Positions 9,147-63,083 of a stretch of DNA of 64,000 nucleotides are shown in pieces (within the stretch, counting starts at the first letter, position 1; every line of letters begins with the position of its first letter). A program made the position numbers and the translations under genes. The notes below the pieces were generated by a model. It searched no databases and was not told where the DNA came from. It saw only the letters and a program-made list of their open reading frames with translations. This DNA is from Halobacterium litoreum (GTDB taxonomy: Archaea; Halobacteriota; Halobacteria; Halobacteriales; Halobacteriaceae): positions 2,542,001 to 2,606,000 of the forward strand of contig NZ_CP089466.1 in the NCBI RefSeq assembly GCF_021233415.1, given 5' to 3'.

Positions 9147-9243
9147 GCTCGTGGTTTGCGTGACGAGTCGCTAAAGTGTCATCGGCTTCCGGAATTGCCG
9201 GTCGCCGTGTAGTGCTTCGACAGTCACTCGATGACTGCCGCCT

Positions 9244-9386
9244 GCAAGCCCTCGGCGCGCTCGCGTCCGGTCGCTCGCTGCGCGCCTCGTCGCTCGTTTC
9301 ACTCGCTCCGTCGGTGCTTGCGTCGCGACCGAACGAGCAAGCGCGAGCGCGCCTCGCCCTTGCAATCCACCAGGCTACCGGCTGTG
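9244..9386. repeat. Intergenic hairpin repeat unit, copy 1
   Basis: Part of the 369-base spacer 9147-9515. Left arm 9244-9272 (GCAAGCCCTCGGCGCGCTCG...) pairs with right arm 9325-9363 (...GCGAGCGCGCCTCGCCCTTGC). The right edge, CTCGCCCTTGCAATCCACC followed by AGGCTACCGGCTGTG, closely matches copy 2 at 37407-37440, and the loop has the same CGCTCGCTGCGCGC...GTGCTTGCGTCGC core. The rest of the spacer shows only a GCTGTCGG-type short repeat near 9395-9430 and the methyltransferase promoter region. Confidence 0.7.
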
Positions 9387-37245: not shown

Positions 37246-37309
37246 TACGGGCTCGGTTTCTGCTGTACTCTCGCTCTTCGCGGCTCTGCTCCGAGCGTCG
37301 ACGACGTTA

Positions 37310-37440
37310 GAAAGCCCTCGGCCGCCACGACTCTCGCCGCTCGCTGCGCGCTTCGCTCCCTTCGGTCGCTGCAGTGCTTGCGTCGCGGGGAGTCGTCCTG
37401 ACGGCCTCGCCCTTTCGATCCGCCAGGCCTACCGGCTGTG
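37310..37440. repeat. Intergenic hairpin repeat unit, copy 2
   Basis: Left edge GAAAGCCCTCGGCC (37310) with inner arm CACGACTC, loop GCTCGCTGCGCGCTTCGC...GTGCTTGCGTCGC, inner arm GAGTCGTC (37390), right edge CTCGCCCTTTCGATCCGCC then AGGCCTACCGGCTGTG (to 37440). Edges and loop match the units at 9244 and 60543, while the inner arms differ but still pair. Confidence 0.7.
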
Positions 37441-38896: not shown

Positions 38897-38969
38897 AGTC
38901 CCGTGGGGTAGTGGCCAATCCTGAAGCCTTCTGGGGGCTTCGACGGAAGTTCGAATCTTCCCGGGACTA
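38897..38969 (+). tRNA. tRNA-Gln (anticodon CUG)
   Basis: A 73-base cloverleaf without encoded CCA. Acceptor AGTCCCG (38897-38903) pairs with CGGGACT (38962-38968), discriminator A38969. The D arm contains GGGTAGTGG. The anticodon stem is AAGCC/GGCTT with loop TTCTGGG, giving anticodon CTG, which reads CAG. The T arm is GGAAG, TTCGAAT, CTTCC (38945-38961). No intron. Bases from 38950 onward are duplicated 96 bases downstream. Confidence 0.93.
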
Positions 38970-59966: not shown

Positions 59967-60494
59967 GTGTACAGCGTGAACGCGCCGGTGCCGGCGTCGG
60001 TCAAGGACGTCGCCGCCGACCTCCGGCCCGCGCTCACCGGCTTCGACCGCGTGCGCGAACGCCACGAGCAGACGCTCCTCGTCAAGCGCGTGCCCGCCGA
60101 CGACCGGAAGGAACTCCGGACGGCGTGGCAGACCGCCAAGGACGCGCTCGCCGGCGCGCCCGCCGTCGAAGCCCGCGTCTCGGAGGTGGACACCTTCCAG
60201 AACCCCCCGAACGGCTCCAGCCCCGTCGTCTACCTCGCCGTCGAGAGCCCCGGCATCCACGACCTCCACGCGCGCCTCTGCTCGGTCTTCGACCCGGTGC
60301 CCGTGATGGAGGGCGGCGACGACTACGACCCCCACGTCACGCTCGCCCGCGACGCCGACGGCTTCCAGGGCCGGCGCGCCGTCGACAACATCGACGGCCG
60401 CCAAGTCGGCCCGGTCACGTGGACTATCGACGAACTCCACCTCTACGACGCCACCTACGGCGAACGCGTGGACTCTATCTCGTTGCCGGCGTGA
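59967..60494 (+). CDS. 2'-5' RNA ligase family (2H phosphoesterase) protein
   Basis: Protein of 175 residues from GTG 59967. It begins VYSVNAPVPASVKDVAADLRPALTGFDRVRERHEQTLLVKRV, like haloarchaeal 2H proteins. The second H-x-T motif is clear, DPHVTLARD (about 116-124); the first reads HEQT, with one extra residue, so the catalytic pair may be altered. 2H proteins act on 2',3'-cyclic phosphate or 2'-5' linked RNA; the substrate here is unknown. GTG is inferred from the family start since the frame has no nearby ATG. Confidence 0.78.
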   Translation: MYSVNAPVPASVKDVAADLRPALTGFDRVRERHEQTLLVKRVPADDRKELRTAWQTAKDALAGAPAVEARVSEVDTFQNPPNGSSPVVYLAVESPGIHDLHARLCSVFDPVPVMEGGDDYDPHVTLARDADGFQGRRAVDNIDGRQVGPVTWTIDELHLYDATYGERVDSISLPA

Positions 60495-60542
60495 GTTCTC
60501 GTACTGTTTGAAAATTGGCGTTGCTACCGTGAACGCTACCTC

Positions 60543-60824
60543 CTCGAAAGCCCCGAGATTGTGGACTCGGTGCGCTCGCTGCGCGCTTCACTCGCTTCGC
60601 TCGTTCCAGTGCTTTCGTCGCGCGCCTTCGTCCACAATCTCGCCCCTTTCAGTCCCGCCCGGTACCGGATGACGCGCCCGCTGGAAACACGCCTACCGAC
60701 CAACTGGTGTTAGGTGGGACTGAAAGGGGCGGAGCGGTCGACTGCGCCCGGGCGAAGCAAGCACGCGACCGGCGGGAGCGCGCGCAGCGAGCCCCGGCGT
60801 ATCGACCGCTCCGGGGCTTTCGAG
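60543..60824. repeat. Inverted pair of intergenic hairpin units, copies 3 and 4
   Basis: Unit A (60543-60656): edge CTCGAAAGCCCC, arm GAGATTGTGGAC, loop with GCTCGCTGCGCGCTTCACTC, arm GTCCACAATCTC, edge CCCCTTTCAGTCCC. Unit B (60716-60824) is the reverse complement in layout: edge GGGACTGAAAGGGG, arm GGAGCGGTCGA, arm TCGACCGCTCC, edge GGGGCTTTCGAG. Edges match between units; arms differ but are self-complementary within each. The 375-base spacer 60495-60869 holds no gene. Confidence 0.8.
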
Positions 60825-60869
60825 GACACGTCGGCGGCACTGGCCGAACTGCCGGCTGTTGAAATTGGC

Positions 60870-63083
60870 TCAGGGACTAGGCGGGTCGCCGTCGTAGGCG
60901 TCCAGGTCGCCGTAGAAGTTCAGCATCGAGAACCGCAGTTTCTCGGGGTCGATGTCCACGAGTTCCTGCCGGTCTTCCGGGGGGAACGTGGGGTTGACGC
61001 TGTACTTGCGCATCGCCGTCCGGCTCTCTTTCGTGTACCGGCGGTCGACGAGCATCCGGACGCCGAAGTCCTCGGGCGACCGAATCACGCGCCCCATCGC
61101 CTGCCGGGTCTTGCGGACGGTGGGAATCTCCACGGCGTACCGCCAGCCGGCGTCCTCCTCGTGGTGTCTGTCGTCGCGGCCGTCGAACGTGCGGGTGTAG
61201 GCGTCCTGGACGGCTTCGGCGCGCGCGTCGAGGTGTGGGTAGGGGACGCCGACGACGGCGACGGTGCGGGCGTCGTCCCCGTCGAAGCTCACGCCCTCGG
61301 CGAGCGTACCCCACAGCGACGTGAACAGCGCGCCGTTGCGGTCGGCGACGAACTCCTGTCGCAAGTCCTCGGCGGCGACGCCGGGCTGGTCGAGGTAGCG
61401 GGTGGTGTCGGCGTCCGCGAGGAGGTCGTGGTAGCGCTCGGCCTCGGCGTAACTCGGGAAGAAGAAGAGGCAGTTCCCGGGCGTGAACCGCACCGCGTCG
61501 CGGAGCGCGCCCGCGACCTCGTCTTGGACCGAGGGGTCCTCGCGGTTCGAGGAGAACAGGGGTTCGGTGTCCACCGCGAACGTCCGGCGGCGGTCCTCGG
61601 GGAACTGCAGGCCGTACGCCATCGTCACCGGGTCGTCGAGGCCGAGCACGTCGCTCACCACGTCGAACGGGCGGAGGGTCGCCGACATCAGGACGGAGGC
61701 GTGGACGGCGTCGAAGAGGTCCGTCGTCACCTCGCGGGGGATGCAGGTGTAGAGTTCGGCGCGCCCGTACACCTCGTCGGTCTGCTCGTTCCGGCGGACC
61801 GCCGCCGTCGGGTACTGGCCGAGGTCGTTTCCGCGCTCGATGTACGCCTCCACGAACTCCGCGACCCGGAGGACGTGGCAGTCCCGGCGCGTCGTCGTCT
61901 CCCCGTTCCGGTAGGCCTCCTCGTACTCCTCGTCTAAGTACTCGCCGAGGCCGAGCGCGTCGGTCACGTCCTCCTTGATGCCGGGCCCGGTGTACGACTG
62001 GAGGAAGGCCAGCGTCAGGTCGTCGCGCCGGTCGTCGTTCGCGACGGGCACGTCCTCCCAGTTCTCGCCGACCTCGGACTTCGCGCGCGACGGCCCCTTT
62101 CCGCCCGGGCCGAAGGAGTCCTCGTAGGTCTCCACGAGCGCGTCCCGGAACGCCGACACCACGCGCTCGGCGGCCTCTCCCCGGTCGTCCTCGACTTCGT
62201 CGAGTTCCGCGAGCGCGCTGTCGAGGCTGTTCTCCGTCAGTTTCTCCGCGGCGTGGTCGCGGGCCGCGTCCTCGACGTTGTGCGCCTCGTCGAAGACGAC
62301 CACCACGTCCTCCGGGTCCCGACCCAGCCAGCGGAAGAACTGCGCGCGGATGCCGGGGTCGAGCAGGTGGTGGTAGTTACACACCGCGAGGTCGACGCCC
62401 TCGATGCCGTCCTTCAGGAGTTCGTACCCGCAGAGGCCCTGCTGCTCGGCGTACTCGTAGATGTCCTCGGGGGTGCGCACGCCGTCGTACAGCCACTGGT
62501 AGAAGTCGTCGTTGTCGCCGACGAGGTTCTCGTAGTAGCGCTCGCAGACGTTCCCCTCCTGGAGGTCTTCGAGGTCGTCCTCGACGGCTTCGAGTTCCTC
62601 CATCACGGACTGTCGGGCTTCCGCCGCCGCCTCGTCGCCGTCCTGGGCCTCGTCTAAGAGGGCCTCCTGGCGCTCCTCCAGTTGGCGCTTGTCGCGCTCG
62701 GCGTCCACGAGTTCGTGGGTGTTGTCCCGGAGCACCTGGCACTCCTCGTAGTTCACGTCGATGTGACACATCGACCCCTTCCCCTTGAACACGACCGCGC
62801 GGATGGGTTCGGCGTCGTGAATCTCACGGGCCTCGCGGACGAACTGGCGCATCTGCTGGTGGACGTTCGTCGTGATGACGACCGTCTTGTTCTCCTCGCG
62901 GGCGTGCGAGAGCGCCGGCGCGAGCGCCGCGAGCGTCTTCCCCGTCCCGCAGGCGCCCTCGAACAGCACGTCCCGGCCGGTGTCGAGGGCGTCCCGTATC
63001 TCGTCCATCGCCGCCCGCTGGTTGTCGTACGGCGAGGGCTTCGGGAAGAACTGCAGGTAGTCGGGTGAGTCGCTCGCGGCCAC
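60870..63083 (-). CDS. XPD/Rad3-family DNA helicase
   Basis: Superfamily 2 helicase of 737 residues. Walker A is FEGACGTGKTLAAL (about 41-54), the DEAH box is VVVFDEAHNVEDAARDH (about 261-277), motif V is GTLAEGVSFDGDDARTVAVVGVPYPHLD and motif VI is RQAMGRVIRSPEDFG. Cys106, Cys115, Cys180 and Cys218 lie where the Fe-S cluster domain of XPD should be, and an acidic coiled-coil-like insertion (about 123-178) separates the middle pair. It opens YLQFFPKPSPYDNQRAAM as archaeal XPD does. XPD unwinds 5' to 3' in repair; whether it replaces or complements UvrABC here is unknown. DinG is the alternative. Confidence 0.88.
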   Translation of the reverse strand: MAASDSPDYLQFFPKPSPYDNQRAAMDEIRDALDTGRDVLFEGACGTGKTLAALAPALSHAREENKTVVITTNVHQQMRQFVREAREIHDAEPIRAVVFKGKGSMCHIDVNYEECQVLRDNTHELVDAERDKRQLEERQEALLDEAQDGDEAAAEARQSVMEELEAVEDDLEDLQEGNVCERYYENLVGDNDDFYQWLYDGVRTPEDIYEYAEQQGLCGYELLKDGIEGVDLAVCNYHHLLDPGIRAQFFRWLGRDPEDVVVVFDEAHNVEDAARDHAAEKLTENSLDSALAELDEVEDDRGEAAERVVSAFRDALVETYEDSFGPGGKGPSRAKSEVGENWEDVPVANDDRRDDLTLAFLQSYTGPGIKEDVTDALGLGEYLDEEYEEAYRNGETTTRRDCHVLRVAEFVEAYIERGNDLGQYPTAAVRRNEQTDEVYGRAELYTCIPREVTTDLFDAVHASVLMSATLRPFDVVSDVLGLDDPVTMAYGLQFPEDRRRTFAVDTEPLFSSNREDPSVQDEVAGALRDAVRFTPGNCLFFFPSYAEAERYHDLLADADTTRYLDQPGVAAEDLRQEFVADRNGALFTSLWGTLAEGVSFDGDDARTVAVVGVPYPHLDARAEAVQDAYTRTFDGRDDRHHEEDAGWRYAVEIPTVRKTRQAMGRVIRSPEDFGVRMLVDRRYTKESRTAMRKYSVNPTFPPEDRQELVDIDPEKLRFSMLNFYGDLDAYDGDPPSP

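Follow-up and report, generated by a model that had tools for sequence, protein, structure and literature searches.

REPINs are inverted doublets of REP sequences, described from Pseudomonas and others, in which the length and the pairing of a hairpin are kept and its sequence is not (PMC3116915). The haloarchaeal element described here shares with them the inverted conserved ends around a variable hairpin with compensatory changes, an intergenic and dispersed distribution, and singlets that resemble decayed doublets (PMC3116915). It differs from REPINs in that it is archaeal, forms a nested composite of two cassettes with a central palindrome, and occupies a strict slot beside start and stop codons. 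REPINs go together with a RAYT/Y1 transposase gene, whereas the haloarchaeal element is present without one in its own genome and in several others. Additionally, the palindromes of REPIN and REP-RAYT systems carry a GTAG or CGTC tag at one end (PMC3733652), and this tag is absent from the haloarchaeal edges, which read CTCGAAAGCCCC and GCCCCTTTCAGTCC. Since both the RAYT gene and the tag are missing, we describe the element as built like a REPIN or BIME and do not class it as one. In the account of BIMEs drawn on here, palindromic units alternate in orientation and form mosaics, and the haloarchaeal cassettes are likewise shuffled between loci (PMC2817692). The haloarchaeal units are about 113 bp long, as compared with the short REPs. 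For Escherichia coli, REPs are known chiefly at 3′ ends, whereas the haloarchaeal element is found mostly next to start codons, with an enrichment between divergent genes. We read it as a REPIN- or BIME-like element of DNA structure that probably forms a border between transcription units.

Among haloarchaeal repeats, SMR-A of Haloquadratum walsbyi also has a length of about 110 bp, inverted ends and tens of copies, and it is alike in showing no target duplication and having no known mobiliser (PMC3119063). SMR-A inserts into near-terminal palindromes of PATE/IS605 elements, whereas the copies described here sit between host genes (PMC3119063). Strict pairing and a slot at gene borders, as seen in the present family, are not described for SMR-A (PMC3119063). 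PATEs, which are IS200-IS605 derivatives of Haloquadratum, are palindrome-bearing repeats without a gene, as is the present element (PMC3119063). However, they derive from IS605-type elements and lack inverted-repeat ends, whereas the present element has such ends and needs no Y1 transposase for its presence (PMC3119063). MITEs have terminal inverted repeats in common with an autonomous transposon, and no such partner was found in the H. litoreum genome. Integron attC sites likewise combine conserved ends with paired arms that vary.

The locus was found in the window, that is, the whole stretch of 64,000 nucleotides of Halobacterium litoreum chromosomal DNA (C1:2542001-2606000) that was analysed. 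An intergenic region between two convergent genes (60495-60869) holds both hairpin units described in the sequence-only reading, and two further units of the family are present in the window:

9241-9368 (C1:2551241-2551368), plus strand: further, weaker family unit, between divergent genes
37307-37421 (C1:2579307-2579421), plus strand: further family unit, between convergent genes
59967-60494, plus strand: gene of a 2′-5′ RNA ligase superfamily protein (PF13563), left convergent neighbour
60495-60540, no strand: left outer flank, about 46-48 bp from the stop codon of the 2′-5′ RNA ligase-like gene to the outer stem
60541-60554, plus strand: outer edge, left strand of the outer stem, TCCTCGAAAGCCCC, perfect pairing with 60813-60826
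60555-60641, plus strand: hairpin cassette A, with arm GAGATTGTGGAC (60555-60566), loop (60567-60629) and arm GTCCACAATCTC (60630-60641)
60642-60659, plus strand: inner edge, left strand of the inner stem, GCCCCTTTCAGTCCCGCC, from complementarity and the DNA fold
60660-60712, no strand: central spacer, long in the window copy, with 61 bp between the units
60713-60730, minus strand: inner edge, right strand of the inner stem, GGTGGGACTGAAAGGGGC, from complementarity and the DNA fold
60731-60812, minus strand: hairpin cassette B, with arm GGAGCGGTCGA (60731-60741), loop (60742-60801) and arm TCGACCGCTCC (60802-60812)
60813-60826, minus strand: outer edge, right strand of the outer stem, GGGGCTTTCGAGGA, from complementarity and the DNA fold
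60827-60869, no strand: right outer flank, 43-45 bp, ending at the stop codon of the XPD-like helicase gene
60870-63083, minus strand: gene of a DEAD_2/XPD-like helicase (PF06733, PF13307), right convergent neighbour

The nearest named match of the helicase is from H. bonnevillei (83%). The window also contains a tRNA gene at 38897-38969 (Rfam RF00005).

The sequence-only reading had claimed that the two units share their edges in opposite orientation and differ in their arms. This was confirmed, and the arms showed perfect pairing over 12 bp in unit A and 11 bp in unit B. Folding of the single units resulted in z-scores of -3.7 to -5.2 compared to shuffles. Within single units GCCCC stands opposite GCCCC, because these bases belong to the outer and inner stems. 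The outer edges of A and B are mutually complementary over 15 bp without a mismatch (60541-60555 with 60812-60826), and the inner edges are complementary at 95% (60641-60659 with 60713-60731). When the whole composite (298 nt) was folded as DNA, a z-score of -7.0 was obtained and none of 200 shuffles folded equally well. The window copy is a single composite and not two separate hairpins, a point that had escaped the sequence-only reading. In the predicted DNA fold, the outer stem, hairpin A, an inner hairpin and hairpin B meet at a branch without any unpaired base, so that this copy is predicted to fold as a perfect four-way (Holliday-like) DNA junction.

Searching the genome and its relatives with a covariance model revealed further copies, which have compensatory arms and are not identical duplications, so that the refuting outcomes named in the sequence-only reading did not occur. 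In the H. litoreum genome, 43 matches with E < 0.001 were found in 32 clusters, and edge patterns together with BLAST gave more than 20 units. Matches were present in 12 of 13 Halobacterium genomes, with 5 to 52 per carrying genome; one genome (G006) contains zero copies. An order-wide sample showed matches in 137 of 195 genomes and 48 of 66 genera, several other genera share the composite layout, and ten haloarchaeal plasmids match as well. A unit runs from a conserved edge through a variable arm of 10-12 bp and a loop to the complementary arm and another conserved edge. Two-unit clusters across Halobacterium are arranged tail to tail (+/-) around a central palindrome in 30 of 31 cases. Most gaps between units measure 29-41 bp, 32-33 bp being the commonest, and the usual spacer of this length carries a CCGG-TTGGTCAG-CCGG palindrome. 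Single units and decayed copies occur often, as do deletions in the loop. A search of the open-access literature by edge sequence strings and by topic yielded no description of this haloarchaeal family, which is therefore apparently undescribed, although this is not proof of novelty.

To assess how the arms vary, 20 units of the H. litoreum genome were gathered by their edges alone. Their arms were 99.5% paired, both sides had changed at 9 of 10 positions, and 72 double-changed cells were counted compared to 23.5 in shuffles (0/500 as high). In slid controls, pairing dropped to 36-52%. Five other species provided 97 units, in which 300 double-changed cells were observed compared to 95 in shuffles (0/500), with all slid controls low; this set was found by a structure model and is therefore biased towards structure. 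Consistent with the earlier claim, structure is kept rather than sequence. However, part of the arm change arises because whole hairpins are swapped as cassettes between loci, and not only by stepwise compensatory mutation. In close relatives, double-sided arm changes (21) outnumbered one-sided changes (16).

The 49 non-Watson-Crick cells in the arms of the 97 units (alignment A2) comprise 8 G.T, 12 A.C and 29 others, and the 20 own units show a single G.U in 200 arm cells. Selection on the RNA of one strand should favour G.U, and this was not seen; the pairing is therefore maintained at the DNA level, through selection or a process that perfects palindromes, unless both strands act as RNA. 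The sequence-only reading had also suggested a DNA cruciform, which fits the missing G.U preference and the predicted perfect four-way junction. On the other hand, C.C mismatches exceed G.G mismatches in the arms of the 97 units (14 and 1). This strand asymmetry counts against the explanation favoured below, because a symmetric role in duplex DNA does not predict it. Locus-specific pairing was looked for in the variation of the inner stem outside the conserved edge, and none was found. In the outer flank, weak pairing was observed (p = 0.001-0.03 for the last 4 bases).

None of the copies overlaps a called gene, and all are intergenic between host genes. The distance from the outer edge to the next start codon has a median of 97 bp (IQR 90-104, n=88) and that to the next stop codon a median of 48 bp (IQR 41-55, n=37), where genes were called by a custom codon-score script and single distances may be off if a start codon is misplaced. 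On truncated inner sides, the distances to genes are broad. Over the approximately 48 bp beyond the outer edge, the strand that reads towards the element is rich in G and T, at start and stop sides alike, whereas element-free intergenic regions lack this bias. Element-free regions have median lengths of 2 bp between convergent and 126 bp between divergent genes. The tight spacing could alternatively mean that a compact genome tolerates only insertions into small gaps.

At the window locus, five further species retain the composite with different arms. In G004, the fused outer edges remain and nothing else of the composite, and in the copy-free G006 only 6 bp separate the two genes. As G006 lives without any copy, the element is dispensable. 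Other loci are also common to several species, indicating orthologous retention; at a second locus, the composite is kept in G003, decayed in G007 and G012, and absent from G006. Besides the 6-bp gap, G006 has 26 bp between promoters at another locus, and the flanks diverge too fast to show a target duplication or a clean empty site. Comparison of G008 with G002, whose flanks are about 85-96% identical, showed how cassettes turn over. One cassette was kept at 92-96% identity, and the other was replaced edge to edge as a block (59-67% identity), each of the replaced cassettes being most similar to a unit at another locus. Deletion of one hairpin, with its edges left behind, also occurs. These block swaps between loci mean that much of the arm change is cassette exchange. 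At one orthologous locus (L235 in G008, L257 in G002), the composite seems to have been turned around in place, with unit A in one species corresponding to unit B in the other and the spacers agreeing as reverse complements.

The family, the composite structure, the DNA-level pairing, the slot and the cassette turnover are computed results, and from them we infer a function. Our main reading, held tentatively at a probability of roughly 45%, is that a haloarchaeal intergenic composite palindrome acts through DNA structure as a border between transcription units. Negative supercoiling, which accumulates upstream of promoters, would extrude the four-way structure from duplex DNA. The extruded cruciform might then serve as a structural border, either as a supercoil sink or as an insulator, between adjacent transcription units. 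Cassettes may be copied between elements by a DNA process that uses the conserved edges for priming, such as template switching or gene conversion, and this copying would renew perfect palindromes while the sequence drifts. Against the main reading stand the dispensability seen in G006, the many single and decayed copies, the alternative origin of the spacing, the lack of locus-specific pairing in the inner stem, with only weak pairing in the outer flank, and the C.C excess. If this reading holds, an undescribed structured DNA element stands beside promoters, in a fixed place, in most sampled genera of an archaeal order. It would provide a natural test of whether cruciforms act as gene borders and of how palindromes remain perfect during sequence turnover. 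REPIN-like architecture would be extended to archaea without the transposase that is thought to move REPINs. The element also shows how the shape of DNA can outlive its sequence.

Nearly as likely as the border role is that these are purely selfish, non-autonomous structured repeats of REPIN- or MITE-like kind, moved in trans by an enzyme and without a host role, the slot reflecting tolerated insertions. The range of 0 to 52 copies per genome inside one genus suits such repeats, as do the frequent decayed singles and loop deletions, the very compact element-free intergenic regions, in particular between convergent genes, and the REPIN-like architecture (PMC3116915). Additionally, the unit nearest to a given one comes from the same genome more often than in shuffles (0.342 compared to a shuffle mean of 0.188). 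Several results do not agree with it. Y1 transposase genes (PF01797) number zero in the H. litoreum genome and in G001, G003, G005, G009 and G010, all of which bear copies, and an autonomous or longer element sharing the outer ends was not found in the H. litoreum genome, where sites that differ from the outer end at no more than one position belong to family units or adjoin one, save for one likely chance match. Recent whole-element transposition or target duplication was not seen, orthologous loci retain their copies, and the flank zone has a distinct composition on both sides. The non-autonomous mobile family proposed in the sequence-only reading stands as to its many dispersed copies without a partner gene; overall, that reading is partly supported.

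Two further readings were rejected. The copy-free G006 carries 2 Y1 transposase genes, and the presence of Y1_Tnp does not track the element among the Halobacterium genomes, which speaks against mobilisation of the RAYT/IS200 type. With regard to a viral origin, zero matches were found in 50,697 phage records, and IMG/VR viral contigs contain zero exact matches to the edge pattern.

A bolder form of the border reading seems unlikely to us. Here, the edges would be a docking site, and cassettes would be cut down to bare edges and replaced from elsewhere by structure-recognising recombination, the resulting junction being the functional border across haloarchaea. If this were true, the element would be a cassette-exchange system in which pairing, and not sequence, is the heritable trait.

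The bidirectional terminator suggested in the sequence-only reading is improbable. In that case, T-rich outer flanks would end transcripts arriving from either side and the hairpins would stop read-through. The first approximately 48 bp past stop codons are indeed T-rich solely when an element follows, the outer edges lie at the median distance past stops given above, and in Haloferax hairpins upstream of some 3′ ends are partial terminators (PMC7237163). However, the T-rich zone precedes the hairpin and also occurs at the start-codon side, and G.U is not tolerated in the arms. Moreover, the sites favour divergent gene pairs, in which neither gene reads towards the element: divergent and convergent regions number 36 and 11 at the 93 element sites compared to 63 and 68 among element-free regions (Fisher p = 0.001), the opposite of what a terminator would predict. 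These orientation statistics, together with a T-rich zone before and not after the hairpin, led us to reject termination as the main role.

Transcription of the composite as a family of structured non-coding RNAs would account for the strong covariation and for a folded form on either strand, but it is very improbable and was rejected, as no family of Rfam 15 reaches its gathering score on the element and G.U is not favoured over A.C in the arms (8 and 12), and the composite is nearly symmetric between strands.

Some further observations concern other modules and the distribution of copies. Several composites carry within their inner stem an insert of a second family, made of two short hairpins (GGAAGAC...GTCTTCC, ACCCTC, GCGAACGC..GCGTTCGC); it was seen in the spacers of L227, L258 and L240 and at C1:508942-509298 of the H. 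litoreum genome. The insert is flanked on both sides by a TCAGTCC/GGACTGA 7-mer, resembling a target duplication. A third module, which consists of two hairpins and a GTGATGA linker (a C-box-like motif), is inserted in unit loops at C1:2630633-2630804 of the own genome and at L203 (3735-4132), and the arms differ between the two copies. Finally, an arc of 0.92 Mb of the H. litoreum chromosome (C1, about 736,500-1,653,000) is free of copies, a gap so large being obtained in 1 of 20,000 uniform simulations, and a gap of about 1.1 Mb is also seen in G002 and G008 among the matches listed.
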